DNA from: Oceanispirochaeta crateris
GTDB lineage: Bacteria > Spirochaetota > Spirochaetia > DSM-2461
NCBI RefSeq assembly: GCF_008329965.1
Contig: NZ_CP036150.1
Coordinates: 1,488,001 to 1,552,000, forward strand
Length of the DNA: 64,000 bases
Reading direction: 5' to 3'
Under the pieces are notes generated by a model. It saw only the letters and a program-made list of their open reading frames with translations, did not search any database and was not told the origin of the DNA. This document shows, one piece after another, positions 7,582-50,312 of this stretch. Position 1 is the stretch's first letter. Every line of letters starts with the position of its first letter. Position numbers and translations under genes: made by a program.

Positions 7582-8700
7582 TCAGTACTTTAAAAAAGGG
7601 GTTTCTAGTTCTGGATTTTTAATTTTTTCTAGAGCGAGGGTTTTCCAGGTACTATTATGACTGCTCATGGTTAAAAGAGACCATAATTCCATGGCTCTAT
7701 CCGGGATGCCTTCTTGATAAAGGGCTTCTCCAATAAAATAGAGAGCACTGTAAAGAGTTTCCAAATTCAGAAAGGAGTTCTCTCCCAAATGGTTTTCAAG
7801 CTTTAAGAGAGTATATAAAGACGGTGACATATGAAAGGTCGAGAATGTCTCATTTATTATTTTTTCAGCCGCAATCCTGTCTTCTTCTATTTGTAAGGCT
7901 TTTAAGCTGTTTAAGTCTCTTTTAAACATAAAATCAGAACGGCTTAAACGGCAAAGATTCTCATAAACATCAATAAGAAACTCTTCATCATTTTCCCAGG
8001 CTTCTTCCATATCTACGGGAAAAGAAAAATCGGGATACCGGTCAATGAGGGACTCAATACCGGCACTGTATAAACTCAAAAGAGGATACAAATTCTTGAC
8101 AAGAGAACTCTTCCAGAGTCCTTCTCCACTATAAAAGCGTCCCAACCGGGATGTGGCTTCCAGAGAATAGGTCAACTGGAGCCGATACAAAAGGAGTAAT
8201 TTATCTATCCCCTCAGATTTCAGAACCTGTACATAAGAGTGCTCCCGCCTAATAACTTCACTATTCCTTTTCATTTCATTGTCAAAAATAGATAGGAGCA
8301 CCTGCTCATACTGGTCGTAATCTTTCTCATTGAGATAGATGTCAGAGAGACTGTAATAGATTTTCCATTTATCATCAGGGACATACAGGAACCTAGCATC
8401 TTGAATGGCTTCTTCATATCGTTCTTTAGCCAGAAGAGAATCTCCTTCGGCCTCATAAATCCGGCCGATCCAGTAAGTTGCCTCTGGAGTTAAAATGCCC
8501 TCTCCTGCAGACAGAGTTATCAGTTCAAGGGCCTCACTCAGCCGTCCTTGTTCGAACATTGCCAGCCCTTTTTCATAAAGTATCCATCCAGGTAAATCCT
8601 GTTTCTCCAGGGATTGACCACTGAGTGAAACAAGAGTCAGGAAGAAAATTCCTGCCGCAATTGTTCTAATTCTTCCAAAAATGCCTCTTTTGCCGAACAA
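7582..8700 (-). CDS. Exported TPR-repeat protein, function unknown
   Basis: A 372-residue protein with a basic N-terminus and a hydrophobic signal segment (about 13-28, ending near SLSGQS), followed by helical repeats resembling tetratricopeptides (for example residues 38-110, with ATYWIGRIYEAEGDSLLAKERYEEAI). It is probably periplasmic and involved in protein contacts; no catalytic motif is seen. The start appears to be TTG at 8698-8700: GGAGGG lies 7 nt upstream, inside ispG, and no ATG follows before the signal segment. The gene therefore overlaps the end of ispG by 64 nt. No specific function can be assigned. Confidence 0.8.
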   Translation of the reverse strand: MFGKRGIFGRIRTIAAGIFFLTLVSLSGQSLEKQDLPGWILYEKGLAMFEQGRLSEALELITLSAGEGILTPEATYWIGRIYEAEGDSLLAKERYEEAIQDARFLYVPDDKWKIYYSLSDIYLNEKDYDQYEQVLLSIFDNEMKRNSEVIRREHSYVQVLKSEGIDKLLLLYRLQLTYSLEATSRLGRFYSGEGLWKSSLVKNLYPLLSLYSAGIESLIDRYPDFSFPVDMEEAWENDEEFLIDVYENLCRLSRSDFMFKRDLNSLKALQIEEDRIAAEKIINETFSTFHMSPSLYTLLKLENHLGENSFLNLETLYSALYFIGEALYQEGIPDRAMELWSLLTMSSHNSTWKTLALEKIKNPELETPFLKY

Positions 8701-40551: not shown

Positions 40552-40836
40552 ATGAATGTAAAAAAAATATTAGAAGAATACAGTCTGGAAATAGACGATA
40601 TCAGATGGTACCTATCTAAAGTGATGACTGAGAAGCTTATGTTTTTAATGGAGACTCCTGAAGAATTAACCCGCTTTATCTGGTCGGCTGAATTGAGTGA
40701 TCAACTCTACAATATGGAAGAACGATATCTGACGACCCTGCAGGATCAAATCAATGAAAACACCCTAGATGAAAGCCATCTCAGAGACCTTCTTTCAGAT
40801 ATGGAAACAACCCGGAGACAGAGGTTCGGTTACTGA
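40552..40836 (+). CDS. Small acidic hypothetical protein
   Basis: A 94-residue soluble protein, strongly acidic and predicted mostly helical (VKKILEEYSLEIDDIRWYLS at the N-terminus; MEETRRQRFGY-like basic C-terminus reading METTRRQRFGY). A good ribosome site, CGGAGG, lies 6 nt upstream of the ATG. It is divergent from rnhA and convergent with the phosphohexomutase gene. I do not recognise a family. Confidence 0.7.
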   Translation: MNVKKILEEYSLEIDDIRWYLSKVMTEKLMFLMETPEELTRFIWSAELSDQLYNMEERYLTTLQDQINENTLDESHLRDLLSDMETTRRQRFGY

Positions 40837-43391: not shown

Positions 43392-44480
43392 ATGGCCAAT
43401 ATTCTATTCTTAGAACCCTTTTACTCGGGGTCTCATAAATACTTTGCGGATGGATTTATCCGCCACTCTCAGCATAATGTTCAGCTTTTGAGCCTTCCCG
43501 GGAGATTCTGGAAGTGGCGCATGGAATCTGCAGGGATGGAATTTGCTCAAAGGATAAACTCTCTCAAAAAGCCCGATTTGGTCCTCGCTACCAACCTGAT
43601 GGATTTGTCTCAGTGGAAGACTTTTTCCGCATGGAGTGAAATCCCCCATCTCCTGTATGTTCATGAGAATCAACTGGATTATCCTCTGAAGGATGGTGAA
43701 AGAAGGGATCTTCACTATGTCTGGAAGGATTATACAAATTATAGGATTGCCGATAGAATCGTATTTAATTCCCGGTATAATCTTGACAGTTTCTGTCGAA
43801 AGTTCGGAAAATTCAGGGCCAGTCTTCCCGATATGAAACCCGAAAATCCAGAGACTGACTTCAGGAGTAAATCTTCAATCATCCCACCTGGATGCTCTCT
43901 TGTTGACACTAGGGGTCTCATATCCCAAGATCAGAAAAAGGAGGCTCCCCTCTTCTTATGGAATCATCGCTGGGAACATGACAAAAACCCAGAAGTTTTT
44001 TTCTCACTTCTTACAAGGCTAAAAAAGGAATCGATCCCCTTTGAACTGGCGGTGGTTGGAGAGTCCTTCAAAGATAGTCCCCCCTGCTTCAAAGAGGCAA
44101 AGTCGCAATTCTCTAAAGAACTTGTACATTTTGGTTTTGTCCAGAACAGAAACGAGTATGAACAGTGGCTGAAACTGGCGGATTTTGTTTTTACAACAGC
44201 CCTTCAGGAGAATTTCGGAATATCAATGGTAGAAGCCATGAGTGCGGGCTGTATTCCCCTCATGCCAAACCGACTGGCTTATCCTGAAGTCTTGCCGTCA
44301 GATTTTCACGACCTTTTTCTCTATGAAAATGAAGAAGATTTATTCACCAAACTAAGTCATCTCTTGAAGAGGTATGATAGGGAAGCCATAGGAATACAAT
44401 TGAGCAAAGAAATGAAACAATATGGATGGGAAGAAATAATCAAAAAATTTGATAGTTTAATTGAAAAAATGTTGGATTAA
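43392..44480 (+). CDS. DUF3524 glycosyltransferase, probable tRNA-queuosine mannosyltransferase (QTMAN/GTDC1-like)
   Basis: A 362-residue GT-B glycosyltransferase. The N-terminal half has the DUF3524 hallmark EPFYSGSHKYFADG (about 8-21) and LPGRFWKWRMES (about 36-47), shared with animal GTDC1, now known as QTMAN, which mannosylates queuosine in tRNA-Asp. The C-terminal half is a family-4-like domain with the E-x7-E block ENFGISMVEAMSAG and FGFVQNRNEYEQWL. It is likely a bacterial homologue. A tRNA-Asp(GUC) gene lies about 2.4 kb away. The acceptor is inferred, not shown. No clear Shine-Dalgarno precedes the ATG. Confidence 0.78.
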   Translation: MANILFLEPFYSGSHKYFADGFIRHSQHNVQLLSLPGRFWKWRMESAGMEFAQRINSLKKPDLVLATNLMDLSQWKTFSAWSEIPHLLYVHENQLDYPLKDGERRDLHYVWKDYTNYRIADRIVFNSRYNLDSFCRKFGKFRASLPDMKPENPETDFRSKSSIIPPGCSLVDTRGLISQDQKKEAPLFLWNHRWEHDKNPEVFFSLLTRLKKESIPFELAVVGESFKDSPPCFKEAKSQFSKELVHFGFVQNRNEYEQWLKLADFVFTTALQENFGISMVEAMSAGCIPLMPNRLAYPEVLPSDFHDLFLYENEEDLFTKLSHLLKRYDREAIGIQLSKEMKQYGWEEIIKKFDSLIEKMLD

Positions 44481-46872: not shown

Positions 46873-46882
46873 ATCCAATAAG

Positions 46883-46956
46883 CGGAAGCGACGGGCCTCG
46901 AACCCGCGATCTCCGGCTTGACAGGCCGGCGCGATAACCAACTTCGCTACGCCTCC
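46883..46956 (-). tRNA. tRNA-Asp (anticodon GTC)
   Basis: A 74-nt cloverleaf. Acceptor GGAGGCG / CGCTTCC, with one G-U pair; anticodon loop CTGTCAA gives GTC; T loop TTCGAGG; discriminator G. CCA is not encoded. The GUC anticodon is a queuosine acceptor, relevant to the glycosyltransferase at 43.4 kb. Confidence 0.94.
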
Positions 46957-48716: not shown

Positions 48717-50312
48717 GTGGAAGAGAAGGTTGGCCTGACACAGGCTCCAAATGGTGAAGACTATGTTCTGTGTCAGGGGAAATCCCTCTATTCAAGATAT
48801 GCCCCATCTGCATCGTCAGAGAGGGCTGCTTCTCTAGCTGAAATGAAAGAGAACTGCATCTACATAGTCCCGTCCCCCCTTCTGGGCTACGGGATTTTTT
48901 CTTTTATAAAGAGAATGCCCGAGAGTTCAGTATTAATTGGTATAGAATGTGATCAGGATCTGATGGCCCTAACGGCCCCACAGCAGCAGCGAATAATGAA
49001 AGAGATCCCCGGGTATCGTTGTTACAGAATCGGCAGCCCTGGCCAGCTTTACGAGCTTTTCAGAAGGACTCAAACAGGCCAATACCGCCATTGTTCACTC
49101 CTAGCGTTAAACGGCGGATACGGCGCCAATAAATCCAGATACGACGCACTATTTTCAACACTTCAGCTTTTTATGAAAAACTACTGGCAAAACAGGCTGA
49201 CCATGGCCAAAATGGGTCATCTCTGGATCAAAAATCTTGCTGAAAATCTTTCGTTTCTTGCACAACGCGACATCAAAGAATTCCATACACAGAAGCCTGT
49301 TTTACTGGCAGGTGCAGGAGAATCTCTTGAAAAGACGATCCCGCTTATTCAAAGATACAGAGATTCAATCTATTTGCTTTGCGTTGATACGGCTCTGCAG
49401 CCACTGTTGAGATCGGACATACTCCCCGACGGGATTGTCAATTTAGAGGCTCAGTTCTACAACCTGAAAGATTTCTATGGCCTTCAGAATCATAAGTTTG
49501 ACCTATTTTCCGATATAACGGCATTTCCTTCGACCCTAAGACTCCCGAACTGCACCCACTACATTTTTACATCTTCCTTTGAAGAAACAACTCTGCACTC
49601 CAGGCTTCGATCTTCAAGGCTGTTGCCCAGTGAAATCCCGCCCCTGGGCTCAGTGGGAGTCACAGCCCTTTACCTGGCTGGAGAAATAAGCCATTCCAGG
49701 ATATTTATCACCGGTCTGGACTTTTCCTATATTCAGGGGAAAACTCATGCCAGGGAGACCCCCTTTCATGACTGGTGTCGCTTGCAGGAAGGACGTCTTA
49801 AGGGAGATGTTTGGTATACATTTTCTAAGAGCAGGCCTTCCTATCCTGCTGTGGGAAAAATAGAAAAACTCGTGACCAACAGAATATTAGAAAGCTATGG
49901 TAAGCAACTGGAAGACCTGTGCAAAACCATGGACCATCGAGTCTTTGATTTGGGAAAAATGGGACTGAAAATGTCGATACCGACTCTAGAGACCAAAGAG
50001 TTTGAACATATGATTCAATCTATAAAGATAGGCACCGGAATTAAGAATTACCCGGAGAGTCCTAATGAGAAAAAGAACACAGTTCTAGAGTTCAAAAAAT
50101 CAGAAATAGAAAGACTGAAGAATCTATTATTTCTTTGGGAAGGCGTCGTTTCCGGAAAGTATGAGGAACAAGAATTATTACCGTATATCACGGATTGTGA
50201 CTATTTGTATTTTCATTTTCCAGATAGAAAAGAACTGCCCAATACTGACCCGGCTTTCCTGTTCAGAGTGATCAGGGAAGCCAGGATTATCTTGAAGCAT
50301 CTTTCAAAATAA
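48717..50312 (+). CDS. DUF115 / MptE-like (Maf-related) protein
   Basis: A 531-residue soluble protein. The central part contains the DUF115 Rossmann-like block LLAGAGESLEKTIPLIQRYRDSIYLLCVDTA (about 194-224) and PDGIVNLEAQFYNLKDF, followed by GVTALYLAGEISHSRIFITGLDFSY. The family spans archaeal pterin kinase MptE and bacterial motility-associated Maf glycosyltransferases; in spirochaetes such proteins are often near motility or envelope genes. The start appears to be GTG with a weak ribosome site. The exact activity is not assignable. Confidence 0.72.
   Translation: MEEKVGLTQAPNGEDYVLCQGKSLYSRYAPSASSERAASLAEMKENCIYIVPSPLLGYGIFSFIKRMPESSVLIGIECDQDLMALTAPQQQRIMKEIPGYRCYRIGSPGQLYELFRRTQTGQYRHCSLLALNGGYGANKSRYDALFSTLQLFMKNYWQNRLTMAKMGHLWIKNLAENLSFLAQRDIKEFHTQKPVLLAGAGESLEKTIPLIQRYRDSIYLLCVDTALQPLLRSDILPDGIVNLEAQFYNLKDFYGLQNHKFDLFSDITAFPSTLRLPNCTHYIFTSSFEETTLHSRLRSSRLLPSEIPPLGSVGVTALYLAGEISHSRIFITGLDFSYIQGKTHARETPFHDWCRLQEGRLKGDVWYTFSKSRPSYPAVGKIEKLVTNRILESYGKQLEDLCKTMDHRVFDLGKMGLKMSIPTLETKEFEHMIQSIKIGTGIKNYPESPNEKKNTVLEFKKSEIERLKNLLFLWEGVVSGKYEEQELLPYITDCDYLYFHFPDRKELPNTDPAFLFRVIREARIILKHLSK

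Follow-up and report, generated by a model that had tools for sequence, protein, structure and literature searches.

A bacterial QTMAN homologue and the probable glycosylation of queuosine in bacteria, with possible precursor salvage in a queA-less Chloroflexota clade

The window, by which we mean the whole 64,000-nucleotide stretch of Oceanispirochaeta crateris DNA that was analysed, encodes a homologue of the animal queuosine mannosyltransferase QTMAN. Because this protein is related to the animal enzyme over its full length, and because the spirochaete carries its own genes for making queuosine (Q), sugar-decorated queuosine, reported so far only in animals, probably exists in many bacteria too. 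We consider it likely that the window protein glycosylates Q and, with somewhat less assurance, that its product would be mannosyl-Q on tRNA-Asp, by homology with the animal enzyme. More tentatively, at a little under even confidence, we propose that QTMAN homologues make glycosylated Q a widespread modification of bacterial tRNA, and that a clade of Chloroflexota which has lost queA relies on salvage of a Q precursor and uses a variant QTMAN to glycosylate Q, mirroring the combination of salvage and mannosylation in animals.

A Pfam search of the 362-aa protein matched QTMAN_N (PF12038.13, earlier named DUF3524) over positions 1–167 of the 168-position profile (E = 2.6e-51; 174.2 bits, cut-off 25), and Glycos_transf_1 (PF00534; E = 4.1e-14) over the donor-binding domain (Table 1). 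The initial annotation had called the protein a bacterial QTMAN homologue from two DUF3524 signatures, EPFYSGSHK and LPGRFWKWRMES, and from a GT-B donor domain with an E-x7-E block; the profile search that it proposed bears this out, and every one of these elements is present. Among 63 aligned bacterial members, which are 36–45% identical to the window protein, 29 positions are invariant, and the two signatures are represented among them, as is the R/K pair of the GT4 domain. E8, S14 and H15 are invariant in the first signature, and W40, W42 and R43 in the second, where K41 and M44 are nearly so. H91, E92 and Q94 of the HENQ motif are likewise invariant, with N93 nearly invariant, and these residues are candidates for an acceptor-binding or catalytic role. 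R193 and K198, both invariant, would form the diphosphate-binding pair expected of GT4 enzymes. The first position of the E-x7-E block is E or D across the family, and E281 is conserved.

Table 1 Positions in the window of the QTMAN-family gene, its domains and motifs, and the nearby tRNA-Asp gene
Feature	Position	Strand	Source
QTMAN-family glycosyltransferase gene, 362 aa, ATG start	43392..44480	+	ORF, Pfam, AF2 model
QTMAN_N (DUF3524) N-terminal domain, residues 3-167	43398..43892	+	PF12038
EPFYSGSHK signature, residues 8-16	43413..43439	+	Alignment of 63 members
LPGRFWKWRMES signature, residues 35-46	43494..43529	+	Alignment of 63 members
HENQ motif, residues 91-94	43662..43673	+	Alignment of 63 members
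GT4 donor-binding domain, residues 181-328	43932..44375	+	PF00534
HRWEHDK, residues 192-198	43965..43985	+	Alignment of 63 members
E-x7-E block E273-E281 (QENFGISMVEA)	44208..44234	+	Two alignments
tRNA-Asp(GUC), predicted substrate tRNA, loop C-U-G34-U-C-A-A	46882..46956	-	ARAGORN, sequence

The structure prediction that the initial annotation had asked for came out in its favour: AlphaFold2, given 63 sequences, produced a model of high confidence over its whole length (pLDDT 93.5, pTM 0.91) with a GT-B/GT4 fold. Its closest folds are retaining GT4 enzymes (Z about 26–32), namely SPS, MshA, BshA, a methylmannose-polysaccharide mannosyltransferase, SenB, PimB′ (3oka) and PimA (2gej). Several of these, PimA and PimB′ included, use GDP-mannose, and MshA, BshA and SenB are small-molecule glycosyltransferases; across the fold neighbours, the donors vary between UDP-, ADP- and GDP-sugars. 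The modelled fold supports the enzyme class rather than a choice of substrate. A PDB sequence search returned no chain matching the N-terminal half, and no GTDC1 chain. All the sequence and fold features examined place the window protein in the QTMAN family, an assignment that is not new, since the Pfam family name already labels such proteins.

The genome of the window's own organism, a spirochaete assembly of one contig (C1; 4.01 Mb, 96% complete), contains genes for Q synthesis, the absence of which the initial annotation had said would count against the proposal. Profile searches placed tgt at C1:1414423-1415502 (507 bits against a cut-off of 306.75) and queA, directly preceded by a RuvB-like gene, at C1:1442904-1443917 (415 bits against 267.45). 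For queG, the third gene on that list, there is a divergent homologue below cut-off: a 301-aa protein (C1, about 3349930–3350834; L096:2430-3335) whose best family is TIGR00276, at 139.8 bits where the cut-off is 200, followed by reductive dehalogenase at 29 bits. It has two 4Fe-4S-type cysteine clusters, the second of which is GCTICQDVCPWN, and we read it as a divergent, sub-threshold QueG. It may also be a paralogue, because similar sub-threshold proteins lie beside QueH in some Desulfobacterota genomes; others occur in the QTMAN-positive genomes G149, G155 and G156. Profile searches of the window's own genome gave no match for QueH and nothing over cut-off for GluQRS. The specificity loop of the Tgt is GGLSVGE, which would make it a preQ1-type enzyme by a published criterion (PMC11570991).

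We propose that preQ1, made or imported by the cell, would be swapped by Tgt for G34 in tRNAs with GUN anticodons, after which QueA would add the epoxy-cyclopentane and the divergent QueG would reduce the epoxy intermediate to Q. The QTMAN homologue, a retaining enzyme of GT-B fold, would use its N-terminal domain to bind Q34-tRNA, with tRNA-Asp the most likely species. It would then attach a hexose to one of the cyclopentenediol hydroxyls, the best candidate being mannose donated by GDP-mannose. The computations show directly the family to which the protein belongs, its fold, and that tgt, queA and a QueG homologue are in the genome. For the sugar, its donor, the hydroxyl that receives it and tRNA-Asp as the target, the prediction follows the animal enzyme.

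The family is patchy yet widespread in bacteria. PF12038 matched in 6 of 149 Spirochaetota, 24 of 198 Desulfobacterota and 36 of 350 Chloroflexota genomes (two of these 36, G600 and G668, with weak, divergent matches of 43–48 bits); 14 well-known control genomes gave no match. A scan of a genome collection found at least 582 relatives in many phyla, and among the 80 retained are members from Bacteroidota, Balneolota, Desulfobacterota, Spirochaetota, Planctomycetota, Chloroflexota, Marinimicrobia, KSB1 and others. Spread by phages or plasmids was rejected as an explanation: no QTMAN match was found on plasmids, no relative among IMG/VR viral contigs, and phages gave only partial matches to the glycosyltransferase domain, at about 28–30% identity and none covering 80% of the query. 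Two loci, L043 and L044, carry near-identical QTMAN genes in metagenome-assembled genomes labelled Bacteroidetes and KSB1; contamination of one or other bin is probable.

In a multi-phylum set of QTMAN-positive genomes, queA was found in 52 of 56, and the other four have QueG (G033 and G171) or QueH (G161 and G198), such that all 56 carry a Q-maturation gene (QueA, QueG or QueH). G161 and G198 lack tgt as well, and the completeness of G033 is 76%; these observations suggest incomplete assemblies. In Spirochaetota and Desulfobacterota, co-occurrence with queA is uninformative, since the gene is near-universal there (140/149 and 187/198 genomes, respectively). Chloroflexota, where queA is patchy, is the real test, and here the naive co-occurrence prediction failed: queA is present in 11 of 36 QTMAN-positive genomes as against 201 of 314 without QTMAN (Fisher P = 2e-4), a negative association. 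Hence, we rejected co-occurrence with queA as proof. GluQRS (YadB), the bacterial glutamyl-queuosine tRNA-Asp synthetase, also adds a group to Q34 of tRNA-Asp. Mutual exclusion of the two enzymes through this shared target was likewise rejected, GluQRS being present in 4 of 24 Desulfobacterota with QTMAN and in 17 of 174 without. Separately, six Bacteroidota/Balneolota genomes (G174, G194, G195, G177, G179 and G186) have two to four QueA-like genes, including a divergent form of 410–424 aa, and many Chloroflexota have two QueA-like genes.

In a tree of 117 proteins, 22 of the 25 from queA-less Chloroflexota fall in a single 23-member clade (SH-aLRT 97), and 22 of the 23 clade genomes lack queA, the remaining member, G701, having a weak queA match. 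In four clade genomes, QTMAN lies on single contigs of 4.7–5.8 Mb, which indicates that the loss of queA is real. The signatures of the clade are altered (E8D and K41R; FYGGSHK to FHGGSHA; RFWKWRM to GGWRWRM). We read the smallest clade member, G534 (3.1 Mb), in stretches totalling 1.2 Mb, which contain a Tgt (462 bits). Its gene is followed, in order, by those for a substrate-binding ECF component, a T component and an A-A′ ATPase, a complete ECF transporter (contig C5, L189:9391-14039). The best family for the substrate-binding component is CD3073-type, at 99.5 bits against a cut-off of 180. Import of Q precursors is known for ECF transporters of the QueT/QrtT group (PMC11130926, PMC11570991), and the tgt and ECF genes are a candidate Q-precursor salvage operon. 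The G534 Tgt loop is GGSLGAN, as against GGLSVGE in the preQ1 type, and this altered loop, along with the adjoining transporter genes, would fit salvage of a precursor. Because this loop is one residue shorter, the residue that replaces the key valine is ambiguous in the alignment, and we rejected reading the loop as a plain Val-to-Gly change of the queuine type. Queuine salvage as in animals is a reasonable explanation of the queA-less exception, drawn from this one genome. In G630, also queA-less, no tgt was found in the 0.4 of 4.7 Mb read, a sample too small to inform.

The tRNA-Asp(GUC) gene that the initial annotation had noted about 2.4 kb from the QTMAN gene, calling the proximity suggestive but perhaps chance, is there. 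On one side of QTMAN lie divergently transcribed genes for a HAD-phosphatase and a phospho-sugar mutase of PGM/PMM type; on the other lie genes for a sigma-70-type factor and a LysM/M23 protein, along with tRNA-Pro and tRNA-Asp, and rnhA is a further neighbour. Parts of this block recur in five related spirochaete loci (L007, L011, L070, L023 and L035), and the window, L007 and L011 have in common a single syntenic block in which tRNA-Asp is near QTMAN and which also holds the sigma factor and LysM genes. A Chloroflexota locus, L136, has a tRNA-Asp(GTC) gene at 7986–8062, about 1.1 kb from QTMAN, independent of spirochaete synteny; the remaining loci scanned have no such neighbour. Proximity to tRNA-Asp is probably local synteny, and we rejected it as a functional linkage. 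Since the window shares it only with two close spirochaete loci and one Chloroflexota locus, it is weak evidence of function, at most suggestive. No conservation of the neighbourhood was found outside spirochaetes. A tally across loci found glycosyltransferase family 1 matches in 2 of 104 flanking genes, with no polysaccharide gene cluster among those 104 or among the neighbours of QTMAN in the window. We conclude that QTMAN is a stand-alone gene, and its varied flanking genes, lacking any polysaccharide cluster, speak against a role in making sugar polymers.

Two other genes of the window recur in related loci. One (40552–40836, + strand) encodes a 94-aa protein with no Pfam match over cut-off and recurs close to the mutase gene in L007 and L035. 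The second (48717–50312, + strand) encodes a protein with an MptE-like domain (PF01973, 89 bits) and adjoins a gene for a SurA/PpiC-type protein; both of this pair are also in L007 and L011.

The enzyme might glycosylate Q34 with a sugar, hydroxyl or tRNA other than those of the animal enzyme (for example glucose or galactose, or tRNA-Tyr, -His or -Asn). A GT4 donor domain alone leaves the sugar unfixed, as the varied donors of the fold neighbours illustrate; tRNA-Asp adjacency is not general, and coexistence with GluQRS in some Desulfobacterota would fit another tRNA or hydroxyl. However, the full-length match is to a profile named after a tRNA-Asp mannosyltransferase, and the core residues are conserved across phyla, and we regard such a shift in specificity as unlikely. 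We give still less weight to a conventional GT4 enzyme whose acceptor is a lipid, a polysaccharide or another small molecule, with DUF3524 just an acceptor domain shared by descent. The Q-maturation genes of the multi-phylum carriers, the varied flanking genes and the polymer models all argue against it: in an NCBIfam search, no polymer-glycosyltransferase family (HpsP, EpsE or LPS glycosyltransferases) exceeded its cut-off, the best scoring 29.1 bits against 550, and thus the better sugar-polymer match that the initial annotation had named as counter-evidence did not appear. In favour of such an enzyme are low-scoring GT4 matches to numerous glycosyltransferases of polymers and lipids, the queA-less Chloroflexota carriers (sampled for tgt in G534 and G630), and the phospho-sugar mutase gene, two genes away on the other strand.

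A further alternative concerns the Chloroflexota clade alone, where the enzyme could have moved to another acceptor after the loss of QueA while acting on Q elsewhere, which is compatible with Q glycosylation by the window protein. The near-complete absence of queA from the clade and its changed N-terminal signatures are in keeping with such a move. Nevertheless, the catalytic and most of the invariant residues are retained, the changes are mild, and the sampled member, G534, has a Tgt with an adjacent ECF transporter; we consider a change of acceptor distinctly improbable.

If bacterial homologues do make mannosyl-Q, bacteria would share the trait of a sugar on the wobble base, and simple knock-outs could then probe what it does in translation. 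Whether the animal enzyme was inherited or was transferred from bacteria would also become answerable. The patchy distribution of the family and the queA-less clade offer natural contrasts for testing both role and origin. A 2020 review assigns ManQ and GalQ to eukaryotes only and gives them as absent from bacteria (PMC7694415). We found no paper on bacterial QTMAN members in the open-access literature, to which our search was confined, subscription papers lying outside it; as far as we have seen there, the predicted bacterial product manQ is unreported.

Animal QTMAN (GTDC1) modifies the Q of tRNA-Asp with alpha-mannose at the allylic hydroxyl (PMC12518689), an activity also described in a passage of PMC12313893 that cites Zhao et al. 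2023. By family profile, the window protein shares with it the whole QTMAN_N domain and the GT4 donor domain, and genes for the Q-tRNA that the animal enzyme uses as substrate are present in the window's cell. They differ in that the window protein is bacterial and its host has its own queA route, whereas animals salvage queuine. PimA and PimB′, which are GT4 mannosyltransferases using GDP-mannose, resemble the window protein in their GT-B fold (Z 25.8–27.5 to the model) but act on a lipid acceptor and are 15–17% identical to it over the structural alignment. GluQRS, named in the same 2020 review (PMC7694415), belongs to a family unrelated to that of the window protein and uses a different chemistry.
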